From the NCBI GenBank assembly GCA_030604065.1, contig JAUVWO010000004.1, positions 1 to 35,366 on the forward strand: a stretch of 35,366 nt of DNA, given 5' to 3'. This stretch comes from Methanomassiliicoccales archaeon (GTDB taxonomy: Archaea > Thermoplasmatota > Thermoplasmata > Methanomassiliicoccales > JAUVWO01). Below the pieces are notes generated by a model. It worked only from the letters and a program-made list of their open reading frames with translations, was not told the DNA's origin and ran no database searches. Below, in pieces: positions 10,068-29,198 of the stretch. The translations under genes were made by a program, and so were the position numbers. Position 1 is the first letter of the stretch, and the number at the start of each line of letters is the position of its first letter.

Positions 10068-11183
10068 ATGTCAATGATTATCATGTCCTCATGCCCTTCT
10101 AAGAATCGAGGCCCTAAGCATGTGCGAAAGGAGTCGGGCCTCGATCGTGCCGATCCGGAGGTGCGGGGGATGAAGCTCGGGAGGTACCCCTTCGCCGCCG
10201 GGATCAAACATTACCTAGAGAGGAGGTACGGCGTTATCGCCGAGTCGACGTACAAGGAGGAGGATAGGAAGTTGAGGTACATTGCGAAGGTCTTCCGGGA
10301 TCTCAAGGACGAGGGAAGGATAAGGACGACCGACCCCCGGCACATCCGGAGGAAGGAGCTGCAGGAGTTCTTAGCGTGGATGAAGAGGGACGATCTCGAC
10401 CCGACAACGCAGGCCAAGTATCTGCAGTATCTCAAGAACTATCTCAAGTTCTTCCGCAACCACGTCTTCGAGGAGATGAAGGCCGACGGGGTTCGGTTCC
10501 CCAAGGCCACGACCAAGCCCATACGGGTGATAGGCAGGGGCGACCTGGACAGGATCTTCGAAACGGTGGAGCGTATGGGAGGCTGGCATGGTTCGGTGGC
10601 CACCGGCATGATCGCCCTGTACTTCGCCACCGGTGCGAGGCCGAAGGAGCTCCGGCTGGCCCACTTCGAGGACCTGGATCTCGAGAAGGGATGGCTGTTC
10701 ATCCGCCACCCCAAGGGCGAGGGGTCCTGGGCCGGCGGGTCCCAGGTCGCCATAATCAGGCCGGACGTCATGCGGTACGTCCGGATCTACCTGAGGGAGC
10801 GGGAGGCCCGCATCCAGGCCAGGGGCCTGAAGGAGGCCACATACCTGTTCCCGAACCTGTACCGGGGGAGCGACACGTTCTACTCGGCGAACAGCTTCAA
10901 CGTGATCAAGAGGAAGGTCGAGGACCTCTCCGGAGTGGACTTCAAGCTGAAGGACTTCCGCTCGACCCTGGCATCGGTCACGGTGATGAACGATCTCAGC
11001 CGCCTACCGGCGGTATCGGCACAATTGAGGCACACCAAACTTGAGACGACACAGAAGTTCTACGCAAGGATAGAACAGGGTGTCGCCGGGAAGCAGCTGG
11101 AGGATGTCTGGAAGGAGTCTCCGGTCAGAAGCGCCAAAAAGCCGTTTATTGAAAATAAATTTGACTACACTGGGTATGCATAA
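10068..11183 (+). CDS. Tyrosine recombinase / integrase
   Basis: YFATGARPKELRLAHF (R), LKDFRSTLASVT and LRHTKLETTQKFYARI (R/H...Y); N-terminal SAM-like core-binding region; ends at the tRNA 3' end. Confidence 0.85.
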   Translation: MSMIIMSSCPSKNRGPKHVRKESGLDRADPEVRGMKLGRYPFAAGIKHYLERRYGVIAESTYKEEDRKLRYIAKVFRDLKDEGRIRTTDPRHIRRKELQEFLAWMKRDDLDPTTQAKYLQYLKNYLKFFRNHVFEEMKADGVRFPKATTKPIRVIGRGDLDRIFETVERMGGWHGSVATGMIALYFATGARPKELRLAHFEDLDLEKGWLFIRHPKGEGSWAGGSQVAIIRPDVMRYVRIYLREREARIQARGLKEATYLFPNLYRGSDTFYSANSFNVIKRKVEDLSGVDFKLKDFRSTLASVTVMNDLSRLPAVSAQLRHTKLETTQKFYARIEQGVAGKQLEDVWKESPVRSAKKPFIENKFDYTGYA

Positions 11184-11281
11184 TGGTGGGCCCGTCCGGA
11201 TTTGAACCGGAGATCTTTGCCGTTTTCAGACGTACTCCACGTCTTGTGAAGGCAACGTCATAACCACTAGACCACGGGCCC
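11184..11281 (-). tRNA. tRNA-Val(CAC) with ~22-nt intron at 37/38, CCA encoded
   Basis: Minus strand GGGCCCGTGGTCTAGTGGTTATGACG TTGCC TTCACA [AGACGTGGAGTACGTCTGAAAA] C GGCAA AGATC TCCGG TTCAAAT CCGGA CGGGCCC A CCA. Confidence 0.92.
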
Positions 11282-18620: not shown

Positions 18621-19637
18621 ATGGACTGGAACTGCACTGCAACCTGTGTGGGTTCGCTGCCCCATACGGATCCGGTGGCGGCGGTGGACCTCATCGTCTC
18701 CCGTCCCGCTCTCATTCCGTTCTGGCCGCAGCTGCCGGCTCGGGGGTTCAGGGAGAACATGTATGCCCAGTACGCCAGCCGACTCCCCGGTATGCAGATG
18801 GACGAGGGCTCGCAGCGGCTTACGGTGGATCTTGATGATTACGACCCCTTGGAGTTCTACACGATGATGCTTTCGGAGGAACTGGATTGGTTCGCCATGC
18901 CCGAGGCGCTGTTCAGCGGGTATTACGAGCTCATCGAGCGCGACCTGGGTTATGCCACCTTCATCAAGGGGCAGGTCACTGGTCCGGTTTCGGAAGGGTT
19001 GCAGATCCTGGATCGCAAAGGTAAGCCGGTTCTGTACGATGCGTCGTACTCGGAGATCGTGCGAAGGAACCTCAACATGATGGCCAGATGGCAGCAACGC
19101 CAGCTTTCCGCTCTGTGCCCGAACACTATAATGTTCCTCGACGAGCCGTCGTTGTCGCTTATGGGGACGCCGTTCGCATCGTTCAGCAGTGTCGATGCAA
19201 CTCGGTGGATGGATGAGACCTTGGAAGGGGTGGAAGGATACACCGCCATCCACTGCTGTGGAAACACCGACTGGCCCACGGTGCTGGCCAGCTCGATCGA
19301 CATACTGTCGTTCGATGCCTACAGTTATGGCCACACCATCGCTCTGTTCCCGGAGGAGCTATCAGCGTTCCTGGAACGAGGAGGGTCACTGGCCTGGGGC
19401 CTGGTACCCAATACACAAGAGGCACTGGCCATCGAGGACGCTGACAACCTGGTCCGTCTGTATGAGATCCACATATCGTCCCTGGTGGTGAAGGGCATGG
19501 ATGAGGACCTGTTACGGAGGCGGACCTTGGTAACGCCTCAATGCGGTCTTGGGGGGCTGTCGGTCGCTGAGACCGGATCGGTGCTGGATATGCTGGTACA
19601 GGTATCTGACCTGCTGGGTGAGAGGCTCGGGGCATGA
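18621..19637 (+). CDS. UROD/MetE-core family methyltransferase, candidate core methionine synthase (MesB/MesC type)
   Basis: TCVGSLPH N-terminus; zinc ligands HCC (AIHCCGNTDW) and C (LVTPQCGLGG); no folate-binding N-terminal domain; located in CFeSP/ACS cluster. Confidence 0.7.
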   Translation: MDWNCTATCVGSLPHTDPVAAVDLIVSRPALIPFWPQLPARGFRENMYAQYASRLPGMQMDEGSQRLTVDLDDYDPLEFYTMMLSEELDWFAMPEALFSGYYELIERDLGYATFIKGQVTGPVSEGLQILDRKGKPVLYDASYSEIVRRNLNMMARWQQRQLSALCPNTIMFLDEPSLSLMGTPFASFSSVDATRWMDETLEGVEGYTAIHCCGNTDWPTVLASSIDILSFDAYSYGHTIALFPEELSAFLERGGSLAWGLVPNTQEALAIEDADNLVRLYEIHISSLVVKGMDEDLLRRRTLVTPQCGLGGLSVAETGSVLDMLVQVSDLLGERLGA

Positions 19638-20356
19638 TGATCGCCATTGCTGGCAAGGGTGGTGTGGGCAAGAGCACCGTGGCCACAATGCTGACGCTGG
19701 CGCTGGGCAAGGAGTCTCTGGTCTTGGCGGTGGACGCCGATCCCAATCCCACTCTGGCAGAGAAGTTGGGTATGGATGCGAGGACGACCCTGGCGCAGGT
19801 GCGCGAGGGCAGCCGGGAGGCGGGAGCGGATGGCGTTCCCAAGCACGAGGCGGTGGCCTTGCGGACCAGGATGGCGTTGGAGGAGGGAGAGGGCTTCGAT
19901 CTTCTGACAATGGGTCGACCAGAGGGCAGGGGCTGTTACTGCTATATCAACAACGTTCTCAAGGGAACGCTGGAGGATATGTCCGATCGTTATCCTTGGG
20001 TGGTGGTGGACAATGAGGCTGGTATGGAACACCTGTCCCGTGGCCTATTGCCTTCGGTGGATGCTTTGGTGATCGTCTCCGACGCCACACCAGCTGGATT
20101 GAGGACCGCAGGGCGGATTGCCGAGCTGGCCGATGAATTAGGTCTGGATGGGGTTAAGAGGGTGATGCTGGTCAACCGGATACGGGGCCAAGGGGAAATA
20201 TCCTCGCCCCGGTCTGCTGGTGTCCTGGTGCTCATGCCCGCGGACCCGGAGCTCGAGATCATGGACATGGAAGGGGAGCCGGTCCAGTTGGACCGGATAT
20301 CTACCGCCACTCGGGCCGCCTTGGGACGATTGATCGCCTCGATCAGAGATCCTTGA
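19634..20356 (+). CDS. cooC: CooC-type nickel-insertion ATPase
   Basis: MMIAIAGKGGVGKSTVATML, VDADPNPTLAEKLG, GRPEGRGCYCYINNVLK, VVVDNEAGMEHLSRG. Confidence 0.92.
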   Translation: MMIAIAGKGGVGKSTVATMLTLALGKESLVLAVDADPNPTLAEKLGMDARTTLAQVREGSREAGADGVPKHEAVALRTRMALEEGEGFDLLTMGRPEGRGCYCYINNVLKGTLEDMSDRYPWVVVDNEAGMEHLSRGLLPSVDALVIVSDATPAGLRTAGRIAELADELGLDGVKRVMLVNRIRGQGEISSPRSAGVLVLMPADPELEIMDMEGEPVQLDRISTATRAALGRLIASIRDP

Positions 20357-21650
20357 GCATACGCGGCAGTCCGGAGGACTCCCGCGGGCCCACGATGACC
20401 CTCATGCCTGAGGCCTCCTGCAACTTGCCGCTCATTCGGGCCACCATGCCCGGTATGATCAGCATATCCGATCCATTTTCCTTGGCCTTGGATGCATCCA
20501 TGGCCTTGATCACATGGTCCACGGTCAGCTTGCCAGCTGAGTAGGCGGTGAGGACCGACAGTCCTTCGGTATCCACCACCTGCAGCCAAACAGGCACCCG
20601 GCTACGCTCGATGTCGCTGGCCACGGTGAAGTAGGTCAATGAGAAGTTGGTGGTGAACAATATGGGTGAGCTGTTGTCAGGATCGTTGATGGGGTACAGC
20701 CCCTCTTTGACCTGAATTGGTACCTGGGGGTCGGTGTATATGTTCTGCCTGAGAACGAACAGGGGCAACGCCTTCTCTGGCCCAATATCCTCGAATGCCA
20801 CTAGGCTACCATATTTCATGGTGGCCACCAGTGCCATGGTCGTTCCGTGGTCATCATCGGGCACACACACCATGAACGGATGGCCCAGCCCGCGGAACGA
20901 GCGCTTGATGGCGTTGCGCCGCAGTATCGTCCCCATCTCCAGAAGCTCCCGAGATGTGGACACGTCCAGGTCCAGGACCAGGTCCTCGATGCCGGCGGCG
21001 CGTGCGTTCTCTACCAGCTCGACCAGGCCGTCCAAGGTATTCGATCGTAGTGCCATGGGGGCGCCGTGCGCCTTGGCCAGTCCTGCCATGCCAAGCGGAC
21101 GGTCAAGACCGTGGACGAGCGGTCTCTGATCCGGTACGACCGACAAGGCCGCGGACATGCAATCCGGGTCCCGGACCATCAGCATCAGCGGCATGCCCAA
21201 GGCGGCGGCCTGACCGGTAACGGTTGCGAATCGTGCTCCGTCACCGGAGTCGCAACGCACTGCCACCAGGTCCATGGATATGGTCTCACCGATACGCTCG
21301 AAGCTGAGCTCACCGAATCGAGCCAATTTGTTCTCGATCTCGGTATCGGTCATCGTATCGTTGATGATCATCGCATAGGCCGTGGGATGGTCGAACCGTC
21401 GCTCATGGCGATAGAGCACCGTCTCATCACCCATCTCCACGGTACGCTCCTTGCCGATCGTCACCCGGCGTATCGGCGGGGCCGAGGACTCGGCCATCGC
21501 CGTCTTGGCATCGTCGGAGACATGGGGGCAATCATCGAGCTTTGTCTTCTGGTTGGCCAACTGCATAGCGAACGCCAGGCAGGTGGGGAAGCCGCAATCG
21601 CCGCAGTTGGTCTTGGGCAGCATCTTGAAGAACTCGATGGCGGTGGGCAT
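20343..21650 (-). CDS. cdhE: Corrinoid/iron-sulfur protein large subunit (CdhE/AcsC)
   Basis: FFKMLPKTNCGDCGFPTCLAFAMQLANQKTKLDDCP [4Fe-4S] motif; TIM barrel and C-terminal Rossmann-like B12 domain. Confidence 0.93.
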   Translation of the reverse strand: MPTAIEFFKMLPKTNCGDCGFPTCLAFAMQLANQKTKLDDCPHVSDDAKTAMAESSAPPIRRVTIGKERTVEMGDETVLYRHERRFDHPTAYAMIINDTMTDTEIENKLARFGELSFERIGETISMDLVAVRCDSGDGARFATVTGQAAALGMPLMLMVRDPDCMSAALSVVPDQRPLVHGLDRPLGMAGLAKAHGAPMALRSNTLDGLVELVENARAAGIEDLVLDLDVSTSRELLEMGTILRRNAIKRSFRGLGHPFMVCVPDDDHGTTMALVATMKYGSLVAFEDIGPEKALPLFVLRQNIYTDPQVPIQVKEGLYPINDPDNSSPILFTTNFSLTYFTVASDIERSRVPVWLQVVDTEGLSVLTAYSAGKLTVDHVIKAMDASKAKENGSDMLIIPGMVARMSGKLQEASGMRVIVGPRESSGLPRMLKDL

Positions 21651-22565
21651 TCAGGCCACCTCCATGAGGTCCTCGATGGCGTCGATCACAATGCCAGCTG
21701 CTCTGGCGCCACGGATGATGACCACGTCCGCTCCCGAAAGTAGGGCGGCAAGCGCGGTGGTCGCCTCCCACCAGGCCACCCGTTCGGACGGGTCACCCAA
21801 CCCCGGACCCTCCTCTGAGGCCTCACGCACCTGCCATGCAGGCACCGCGTCGCAGAGCATGGGCACCTGCAGCATGCGGTCACCACTGAGCGCGGCTAGA
21901 CGAATGCGCTCGTTCACCGAGTAGGAGTATTCAAGTCCCATACCCAACGCTGCCATGAGCGGGTCCATGATCACAGTGCCCAGATCCATGCCGAAATCGG
22001 TCAGCAGGATGTTCATCTGCTTGGCCAGGTTGATATCAAGGTTAGAGAATGCTATGAGTGGGTTGCCGCCAGCCATCGAGGTGGCTGCCACGGTGCGATA
22101 GGTCTCCTCTTCGGCATGGCCCAGCACCACTCTCCCCGCTGTGGCGGAGATAGCCTCTATTACCTTGGCATCGGATCCGGGGTTACCACTGCCGTATACG
22201 ATGATCGGCACATCGACCGCCTTTAGCACACGTGTCACCATATCTGCGGCATCCTCAGGTGGGCGAGCATCACCATCGGGGTCCGTGGATATCAGTCTTA
22301 GACAGATGGCGTCGGCACCGATCCCCACCCATGCCTGGGCCCAAGCTTCAGGTGTGTCGATCCTGCCATCGAACTGCCTGGCAGCCATTTCCGGATAGTC
22401 GGTCAGCGTGTCCAGGACCTCGCCGGCCACCATGGGACGGTTCGTTGTTCCCTTCTCGAAGGACAGGAAGGGCATGCCTCGACCCCCGCCAATGGTGCGA
22501 TCGCCTAGCTCGATGGTGCCAATGGCACTGGACTATTTCTCCTTAGGTATGGGAACCTTGGACAT
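21651..22565 (-). CDS. cdhD: Corrinoid/iron-sulfur protein small subunit (CdhD/AcsD); in-frame TAG at 22533-22535 (codon 11), ORF-track start is 22475
   Basis: Body (LGHAEEETYRTVAATSMAGGNPLIAFSNLDINLAKQMNILL...) is AcsD/CdhD. Upstream same-frame MSKVPIPKEK-(TAG)-SSAIGTIELGDRTIGGGRG matches the family N-terminus, with SD GGAGAG and TATA box. Confidence 0.75.
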
Positions 22566-22613
22566 CCGTTTCTCTCCTGGCCACTGTTGGGCCCGTTTGG
22601 CATGAGACCATTG

Positions 22614-22625
22614 ATTTTTATATAG
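22614..22625 (-). promoter_or_regulatory. Candidate TATA box for cdhD-cdhE
   Basis: Minus strand CTATATAAAAAT ~50 bp upstream of ATG 22565, between genes. Confidence 0.5.
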
Positions 22626-22631
22626 GTTTGG

Positions 22632-25607
22632 TCAGGAAAGCAAAGGCGGCATGCCTAAAGCAGGGTGATTACGCTCTACCATCCACGTCATCAGCTCCTC
22701 GGCGGTGGTGACCATGGTTTCATCGGCCACCTTGTCCAGGAAGTCCGGGTGCTCCAGATCCTCCGCCCTCCGTTGCAACTCGGTCCGCATCGACTCCTTG
22801 AGCGATCGGGGCATCCAGGCTATGCGCAGGAACCCTCCGTCAGCGGGTATGACTTTGGAGCTCAGTAGGTAACGGCGTCCGATACCGATGAACCCAGGTG
22901 TCTGCTTTCCCCCTCCGATGGATCCAGCCAGGGTGGAGAACTTCATGCCAATGGGAGTCATGCCACTGAATTCCCTGGACACCACTATCACCGCCTGCAC
23001 GTCGGCGGTCATGGCCACGATGGCCTCGAAGCATCCGCAGGCGGTCATGGGTAGGTCCATCAGGGTGTAAAGGTTGATGGCCGCCACCTTGCGATGCGAT
23101 AGCTCCATGACCGTATCGTTGATCCCTTCCCACTGACCTGACACTGGGTCGATGGGTGTACCCTTTGAAATGGGTTGATTGGGGCCGTTGGGTGATATCT
23201 GCGATGAAGCCTTGGCGTCCAGCCAATTGATCGCCCCACAAAGCCCTATCCTCTCGGGGGTCACGATGCATACATGATCAGGAGCGAACGACTGGCACAG
23301 GGTACAGGTGTAGAACGTGTCCACGTTCTCATCGGACAGATCACGGAGTCGATGGTCCCTTTCCGCATAGACCAAGACCGCTTCGCGGTGCAACTCTGTC
23401 ACCCGTTCCGGATGGGTGACGATGGTCACCTGCACCCGGGTGACGATGCTGCCGAACTCATCCTTGAGCATGCGCACCATAGCCTCGCCAAGATGCTCGA
23501 ACCTCAGACCCGCTGACACCGCATCACGGCTGAGGCGTATCCACACCATGTCTCGCTGTCCGGTGTGCCAAGCGCCCTCGGTGTAGTTGACGAATTGGTG
23601 TATGCGACGCTCCATCACCCCCTCGAAGTCGGGTTGCATATCCCTGCCATAGACCTCGACCAGGATGGCCAATGGGGTGACTGTCCCCGCTTCCATGGTG
23701 TCGGCATCCTGGCCGATCACGGTCACCAGGCCGTCCTCTGCCATCGGGGAGATGCGCAGCAACTCGAAGCTCTCGCTCCTGCCGCCTCCCGCCTCCACAT
23801 GGGTGACCGGGCGCCGGATGACCTCGCCCTCGAATGCTGGGCCATAGGACACGGGGAGGTCCACAGGTGGCAGCCTCACTTGGATGCCGCGGACCTCGAT
23901 GGCATCCTGGACCGCTTTTGCGTTATCAGGTTGTCCCATCAGGGCGCCTGGGATGATCTCCACCTCCATATCGGCGATCACCAGGGCACCGTGGGCGATG
24001 GCGGCGAACGCCGCAGCGGCTGACAGTGCGTCGACCGGACCCATGTGGTACACGAACACCTTGGGCCTTTTGGCCATATAGCTTTTCAGACGATCGGCGT
24101 CACCGGGCCCGATGCCGCCAAAGGACAGCGCCGCCCGGACCGCGAAGTTTATGGCGTGGATGACCTGAGTGCCTCGTCCCAGGGGATAGAGCATCATGTC
24201 CAATCCCATTTGGATCCCCAGCTCCCTCATCTGTTGGATGATGTCGTCGGTGGCCATGATGAGCATGCCTTTCGATCGGCATTCCCGGACGATGGAGCGA
24301 AGCCCCTCCGGGTCCCGGGCCCGACCCATGAGCACCGCTGCGCCAGGGATGGTCTCGTCCACTAAGCTGATCCCCAGCGACCTGAGGACCTTGTCCGGTA
24401 CGAAACCGATGAAACCGGTGCCATCGAACGGGGCATCATCATCCAGGTATCGCAGCGCCTCGATCACATCCAAGGCTATGGCGGCGGTCACCCCTATCTC
24501 TGTCGGATCCAGAGCCTCAGCCCTGGTCGTCATCATATTGGCCGCCAAGCCGAGGGTGAGCCGCTCGTGCCCCAACCAGGCGTACGCCGTGGGTATGCCA
24601 TAGGCGGTCTCAGGGTAGTCTAGTGCCGTCTCTTCTCCTCGTTTGTCTATGGCCAGGGCCAGAAGGTACCGTGCCAGCGCCACTGCGGTCCGGGCCCCAT
24701 GCCGAGCGGAGGCGGCAAGCTCGTCCACAGTGGCCGGAGGCAGGTCAGGCATGTCAGTCCGATCGTCGAGGCCCAGGGACCACCGGCGTCGCTCCACCTC
24801 CGTGACCACATCGCCGGTCAGATGTCCATGAAACAGTTCCTGCGCCACTTTTCCGAACAGCAGCTCGGTCCCGGCGGGGGCGGTGCCGGTCACCGGCAGG
24901 CCCATAGCCACCAGGGCGACCCCTGTCATCGGATCGGAACTTGAGGCGGCAGCAGGCAGGCGACCCACACGACAGCCCATCGACTGAGCCACCTCGTGAA
25001 GCAGATCCAACGCCTCGGGCAATCCACTGACCTTCAGGTCGCCCTCGGCGCCAGCGTCGCCATAGACTATCCTAAGCAGTCCTGGTGGCGTATCGCCGGG
25101 GGACCCGTCCACCAGCATCAAGCCCCTGACCACACCACTGGAAATGTCTTGGGACAAGGACTCTGCCGCTTCCGTATGGCTTTCGATGTCCCGTTCGAAG
25201 AGATCGTACTTCATACAGGCCAGGTTAAGCGCCGATAGCGACTTGACGATAGAGGTGAGAGCTTCGTCGATGGACCGATCTCCTGATGATGGTCTGTAGC
25301 TGCCGGGGATCAGGCCGAGGTCCCGTAGCGCCTGCGATCGTATTTTGGACATGCGTCTTGAAAGGAAGGAGTGGCCCCCGTCAAGTTCAGCGAGAGCCAG
25401 GCGCACAATCTCATCTTCCAGATCCGATCTGCGTGGGTCCATTCCCAGAGATCTGGCCGTTTGGGATATCCTAGAACCATCCAACCCTTGGCCAAGCAGG
25501 TTACGCAGGGAGACCACATCCACGGTTTGCAAGCTGACACCACCTATGCGGGAATGCCCGCAGATAGTCGATGGCGTTCCTGGATAAAATTTTTTGTTCG
25601 GCCTCAT
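22632..25607 (-). CDS. acsB: Acetyl-CoA synthase, bacterial AcsB-like full-length type with ~300-aa N-terminal extension
   Basis: A-cluster motifs FYTCTLCQSFAPDHVCIVTPERIGLCGAINW and MTACGCFEA; AcsB domain-1 homology from ~residue 320 (LDYPETAYGIPTAYAW...EALRYLDD...WIG-like TGFIGFVPDKVLRSLGISLVDETIPGAAVLMGRA). ATGA start overlap with upstream gene. Confidence 0.93.
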   Translation of the reverse strand: MRPNKKFYPGTPSTICGHSRIGGVSLQTVDVVSLRNLLGQGLDGSRISQTARSLGMDPRRSDLEDEIVRLALAELDGGHSFLSRRMSKIRSQALRDLGLIPGSYRPSSGDRSIDEALTSIVKSLSALNLACMKYDLFERDIESHTEAAESLSQDISSGVVRGLMLVDGSPGDTPPGLLRIVYGDAGAEGDLKVSGLPEALDLLHEVAQSMGCRVGRLPAAASSSDPMTGVALVAMGLPVTGTAPAGTELLFGKVAQELFHGHLTGDVVTEVERRRWSLGLDDRTDMPDLPPATVDELAASARHGARTAVALARYLLALAIDKRGEETALDYPETAYGIPTAYAWLGHERLTLGLAANMMTTRAEALDPTEIGVTAAIALDVIEALRYLDDDAPFDGTGFIGFVPDKVLRSLGISLVDETIPGAAVLMGRARDPEGLRSIVRECRSKGMLIMATDDIIQQMRELGIQMGLDMMLYPLGRGTQVIHAINFAVRAALSFGGIGPGDADRLKSYMAKRPKVFVYHMGPVDALSAAAAFAAIAHGALVIADMEVEIIPGALMGQPDNAKAVQDAIEVRGIQVRLPPVDLPVSYGPAFEGEVIRRPVTHVEAGGGRSESFELLRISPMAEDGLVTVIGQDADTMEAGTVTPLAILVEVYGRDMQPDFEGVMERRIHQFVNYTEGAWHTGQRDMVWIRLSRDAVSAGLRFEHLGEAMVRMLKDEFGSIVTRVQVTIVTHPERVTELHREAVLVYAERDHRLRDLSDENVDTFYTCTLCQSFAPDHVCIVTPERIGLCGAINWLDAKASSQISPNGPNQPISKGTPIDPVSGQWEGINDTVMELSHRKVAAINLYTLMDLPMTACGCFEAIVAMTADVQAVIVVSREFSGMTPIGMKFSTLAGSIGGGKQTPGFIGIGRRYLLSSKVIPADGGFLRIAWMPRSLKESMRTELQRRAEDLEHPDFLDKVADETMVTTAEELMTWMVERNHPALGMPPLLS

Positions 25608-28953: not shown

Positions 28954-29058
28954 GCTGGGGTAGCCAAGCCTGGCCAACGGCGCAGGACTTAAGTGGGCCG
29001 ATGGTCCAAAGAAATTCTGTCCCGCAGGGGTTCGGGGGTTCGAATCCCCTTCCCAGCA
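28954..29058 (+). tRNA. tRNA-Leu(UAA) with ~20-nt intron at 37/38 (28994-29013); CCA not encoded
   Basis: GCTGGGG acceptor pairs TCCCAGC; CAGGA-CTTAAG-[TGGGCCGATGGTCCAAAGAA]-A-TTCTG anticodon arm; long variable arm; GGGGGTTCGAATCCCCT T-arm. Confidence 0.92.
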
Positions 29059-29198
29059 CCTCATACATCGTTCTTGGAGAATTGTTAACGATCAGATTCG
29101 TGGCGCAGTCTCCCATGTCCCTTGAACATATGGCCCAGAGCATGTCGTTTGAACATGGTGGGTGAATCTTTATCTGTAATGGCACTATCACAAGGCGA

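Follow-up and report, generated by a model that had tools for sequence, protein, structure and literature searches.

The CFeSP small subunit family CdhD/AcsD (PF03599; NF003376) is characterised by its sequence, an operon with cdhE and acsB, a TIM barrel and an N-terminal KEK-aromatic motif, and the crystallised CFeSP of Carboxydothermus has KEKW as well. The cdhD gene described here shares all of these features. Unlike its orthologues in this family, however, it has TAG instead of an aromatic codon at codon 11. With its in-frame TAG, its role in corrinoid metabolism and its place in an order that contains Pyl, the gene resembles those of the Pyl methylamine methyltransferases MtmB, MtbB and MttB. 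We conclude that the cdhD amber is a private substitution, ordinary in kind, with no evidence of decoding.

The gene lies between the acetyl-CoA synthase gene and cdhE in a window of 35,366 nucleotides, the whole stretch of Methanomassiliicoccales DNA that was analysed. On the minus strand the frame opens with ATG 22565-22563, reads MSKVPIPKEK up to TAG 22535-22533 (codon 11) and continues through SSAIGTIELGDRTIGGGRG to ATG 22475. Across the amber it reads KEK-X-SSAIGTIELGDR, where X is codon 11. The features of this region are as follows:

22632-25607, minus strand: acetyl-CoA synthase, acsB/cdhC-type, 991 aa, intact
22614-22624, minus strand: candidate archaeal TATA box (TATATAAAAAT) of the cdhD-cdhE transcript, proposed from the sequence
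22572-22577, minus strand: Shine-Dalgarno GGAGAG for ATG 22565, 6-nt spacing, anti-SD duplex of -7.1 kcal/mol
22533-22565, minus strand: ancestral cdhD start, MSKVPIPKEK followed by TAG (22533-22535); Trp, Tyr or Phe at codon 11 in relatives
22476-22532, minus strand: cdhD codons 12-30 (SSAIGTIELGDRTIGGGRG), matching the family N-terminus and containing the predicted beta-hairpin (residues 17-26)
22482-22487, minus strand: GGGGGT within Gly codons, possible internal SD for ATG 22475, duplex of -10.7 kcal/mol
21651-22475, minus strand: cdhD/acsD open frame from ATG 22475, 274 aa, CFeSP small (delta) subunit, complete TIM barrel
20343-21650, minus strand: cdhE/acsC, CFeSP large (gamma) subunit, intact

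The first-pass annotation had placed the TAG inside an ancestral cdhD frame opened by ATG 22565, with GGAGAG 6 nt before this ATG and a TATATAAAAAT box upstream, and had noted that the stretch from the TAG to ATG 22475 contains no other in-frame start (ATG, GTG or TTG); the re-read sequence agrees on all of these points and places TATATAAAAAT at 22624-22614. Since homology to the family extends to either side of the TAG without a change of frame, the change is a substitution and not a frameshift, and a frameshift origin of the break is ruled out. Beyond the TAG, the codons keep the reading frame of the closest relatives in the alignment, as with KEKWSGAITSAALGDGSVRIGGAKG-MPFLAFED in L013. The 274-aa frame matches PF03599 with 116 bits, solved CFeSP small subunits match the product at 1e-60, and the shortened CdhD reaches 270.6 bits against NF003376, slightly under the cut-off of 280. 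The remainder of cdhD and the CODH catalytic gene are both intact.

Several other features of the window were recorded. The acetyl-CoA synthase (22632-25607) carries an N-terminal extension of ~300 residues without Pfam match. ORFs of comparable length (987-1036 aa) occur in the relatives L045, L047-L049, L051 and L055, while the enzyme elsewhere in the order mostly has about 720-770 aa and fusions of ~1400 aa exist in some Thermoplasmata. A 338-aa ORF (18621-19634, plus strand) has no confident family and a weak Meth_synt_2 resemblance. It is found near cdh genes in many relatives at about 38-59% identity and is perhaps a methyltransferase tied to the corrinoid protein. A gene for a tyrosine-recombinase integrase (10068-11183) directly adjoins the tRNA-Val(CAC) gene at 11184-11281 (minus strand). 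This tRNA gene has an intron of 22 nt, and ARAGORN without introns miscalls it as Cys(ACA). The left part of the window has a higher AT content and probably represents an integrated element; a search within the window for att repeats of at least 14 bases gave none. A second intron-containing tRNA gene (28954-29060, plus strand) was missed by the default scan, and ARAGORN with introns assigned it to Leu, AAG, with an 8-nt intron and an uncertain anticodon.

A full-length CdhD query found a match in 93 of 148 Methanomassiliicoccales genomes, and the identity of CdhD to orthologues of the order is about 48-60%. These orthologues begin with M-[VAS]-[EK]-VPIPKEK-W-[ST]GKIG or near variants. At codon 11, most relatives have Trp, others Tyr and some more distant Thermoplasmata Phe, encoded by TGG, a Tyr codon or occasionally a Phe codon. 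No stop codon occurs in any of the 68 close orthologues (E below 1e-80, source gene excluded) from these 148 genomes; 67 of them span codon 11, and the remaining one is truncated at the end of its contig. Three 'GTA' entries and one 'GTG' entry in the codon-11 motif search were mis-hits, with W or Y by eye. Among these cdhD genes, a TAG is reported for the source genome alone, which is the sole representative of its family among the genomes compared. Since the relatives have an aromatic codon, the TAG derives from TGG or TAC/TAT through a single base change, which is private to this genome. No relative examined uses the downstream Met as start, and their alignments bear out the earlier proposal that ATG 22475 is a non-ancestral start and the segment upstream of it the conserved family N-terminus. 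The ancestral cdhD start is therefore corrected to ATG 22565.

The source genome (1.43 Mb, 129 contigs, 90% complete) encodes McrA and the CODH catalytic subunit, which identifies the organism as a methanogen with CODH/ACS. PylS was not found in it, the best matches reaching 36 and 20 bits versus a cut-off of 178 that was passed by 59 of 101 genomes of the order; CdhD-near genomes such as G045, G080, G067 and G004 were also under this cut-off. Pyl biosynthesis was represented by PylB, and its best match in the source genome had 37.8 bits versus a cut-off of 348. Of the client methyltransferases, MtmB and MttB were sought and had no match there, with a positive Methanosarcina acetivorans control. 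A tRNA-Pyl covariance model (R1), built from four relatives, gave a best tRNA-Pyl of 69-97 bits in each of eight Pyl-positive control genomes; its sole match in the source genome was a tRNA-Gly with 36 bits. All anticodons were read among the 33 source-genome tRNA matches over the Rfam threshold, and CUA was absent. Pyl decoding was rejected on the basis of these protein, tRNA-Pyl and all-tRNA searches, with a slight chance that a pyl cluster lies in the missing ~10% of the genome. The source organism appears as an McrA-bearing Methanomassiliicoccales methanogen without detectable PylS, MtmB and MttB, and for this reason it probably does not use methylamines in the usual way.

Stop codon usage was determined in a sample of 512 kb, about a third of the source genome, in which TAG ends 21 of 113 homology-supported ORFs (19%), similar to the PylS-negative relatives G004 (34/191) and G003 (45/205). 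Among source-genome ORFs of at least 250 aa the share is 25 of 129. In Pyl-bearing Methanomassiliicoccales amber accounts for at most 11% of stops (PMC3941956). Avoidance of TAG as terminator was not seen in the source genome, and this stop usage rules out genome-wide TAG recoding. The earlier statement that TAG is a rare terminator holds within the window, where it is uncommon, but not genome-wide. The first-pass suggestion of pyrrolysine or programmed amber readthrough is unsupported, since none of the Pyl components sought nor a CUA tRNA was found, TAG is a normal terminator, and the site is aromatic in relatives and not lysine-like.

For an estimate of assembly soundness, about 136 kb of coding DNA were aligned to proteins of two relatives and scanned for nonsense and frameshift changes. 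The cdhD TAG is the only credible in-frame nonsense codon in this DNA; the other flagged alignments were matches of low identity or in a wrong frame, ends of alignments, or the regular cdhD stop read upstream of cdhE. No credible frameshift was found, the sole candidate lying in an alignment of 21-31% identity. The consensus is therefore generally sound, and a sloppy assembly is unsupported.

In the AlphaFold model of CdhD (mean pLDDT 91.7) residues 17-20 and 23-26 form a predicted beta-hairpin, and the first barrel strand spans residues 45-51. A start at Met31 would cost the hairpin and two invariant glycines (26-27) and leave all eight barrel strands in place. GGGGGT is located 6 nt before ATG 22475. 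Relatives that start upstream have equal or better sites at this position, via their glycine codons, so that the site shows no sign of adaptation, and the idea that an SD arose here specifically to serve ATG 22475 is unsupported. In Haloferax, reinitiation after termination is near zero beyond about 20 nt (PMC10666635). Given the 57-nt gap, termination-reinitiation from the TAG to ATG 22475 is unlikely, and initiation at 22475 would need to be independent.

Since there is no sign of Pyl machinery, the most likely origin of the cdhD amber is an ordinary nonsense mutation or one wrong base. A nonsense mutation rescued by ATG 22475 and a sequencing error had both been listed in the first-pass annotation, rightly as possibilities. 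We tentatively favour a nonsense allele that is private to this genome and due to one base change, with a shortened CdhD made from ATG 22475; here we infer that the base is real and that this ATG is used. Codon 11 would have changed from TGG (or TAC/TAT) to TAG in the source strain, and translation from the upstream start would end as a 10-residue peptide. Independent initiation at ATG 22475, with the SD-like GGGGGT upstream, would yield a 274-residue CdhD that keeps the eight barrel strands and misses the N-terminal hairpin. This reading builds on what is directly observed, namely a TAG unique among the orthologues at a W, Y or F site, no Pyl system or CUA tRNA found, and ordinary use of TAG as terminator. 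The intact rest of cdhD, cdhE, acsB and the CODH catalytic gene, the SD-like site, the late first barrel strand and the sound consensus also argue for it. However, a start at the downstream Met is seen in none of the relatives examined, the invariant glycines would be lost, the SD-like site is unremarkable, and reinitiation over 57 nt is improbable. The rival explanation is an erroneous base in the consensus of the metagenome assembly, or a variant from a minor strain, the real codon being TGG or Tyr and CdhD being full length from ATG 22565. A true TGG read as TAG corresponds to a C-to-T change on the plus strand. The fragmentation into 129 contigs, the intact start codon, SD and TATA box of the upstream ATG, and the lack of nonsense codons in the same segment of any other orthologue examined speak for such an origin, as do the codons after the TAG, which still fit the family N-terminus, as though their translation continues or ceased only recently. 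This is a serious contender, but errors are infrequent in the ~136 kb aligned, and by judgement we place the real allele slightly ahead.

Some readthrough of the TAG by a near-cognate tRNA (Trp, Tyr, Gln), resulting in minor amounts of full-length CdhD, is unlikely. The preserved upstream start signals and codons 12-30 would suit it, and aromatic insertion would restore the ancestral sequence, but the 33 tRNAs include no CUA suppressor, the aligned genes contain no further in-frame TAG, and TAG is an ordinary terminator. A reading in which a near-cognate or unrecognised suppressor tRNA places an aromatic residue at a genuine TAG, making part of CdhD full length without pyl genes, is very unlikely. 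Insertion of pyrrolysine at codon 11 is hardly credible. Many species of the order encode Pyl, but none of the Pyl components sought was found in a 90%-complete genome with positive controls, several of the nearest CdhD relatives also lack PylS, TAG is not avoided, and the ancestral residue is Trp or Tyr.

A Methanomassiliicoccales gene with a TAG in frame should therefore not be taken as evidence of pyrrolysine unless the genome has a Pyl system. If the TAG is real, the locus would be a rare natural experiment on whether the CFeSP small subunit can do without its N-terminal hairpin. Unlike in MtmB, MtbB and MttB, the cdhD TAG lies close to the N-terminus, at a site that is aromatic in relatives, and occurs in no other orthologue examined, and unlike the Pyl methyltransferase systems the source genome has no detected pyl genes or MtmB/MttB. 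The cdhD case, known from the assembly consensus, shares with N-terminal nonsense alleles that use a downstream start the early single-base stop, the intact remainder of the gene and an in-frame ATG soon after.
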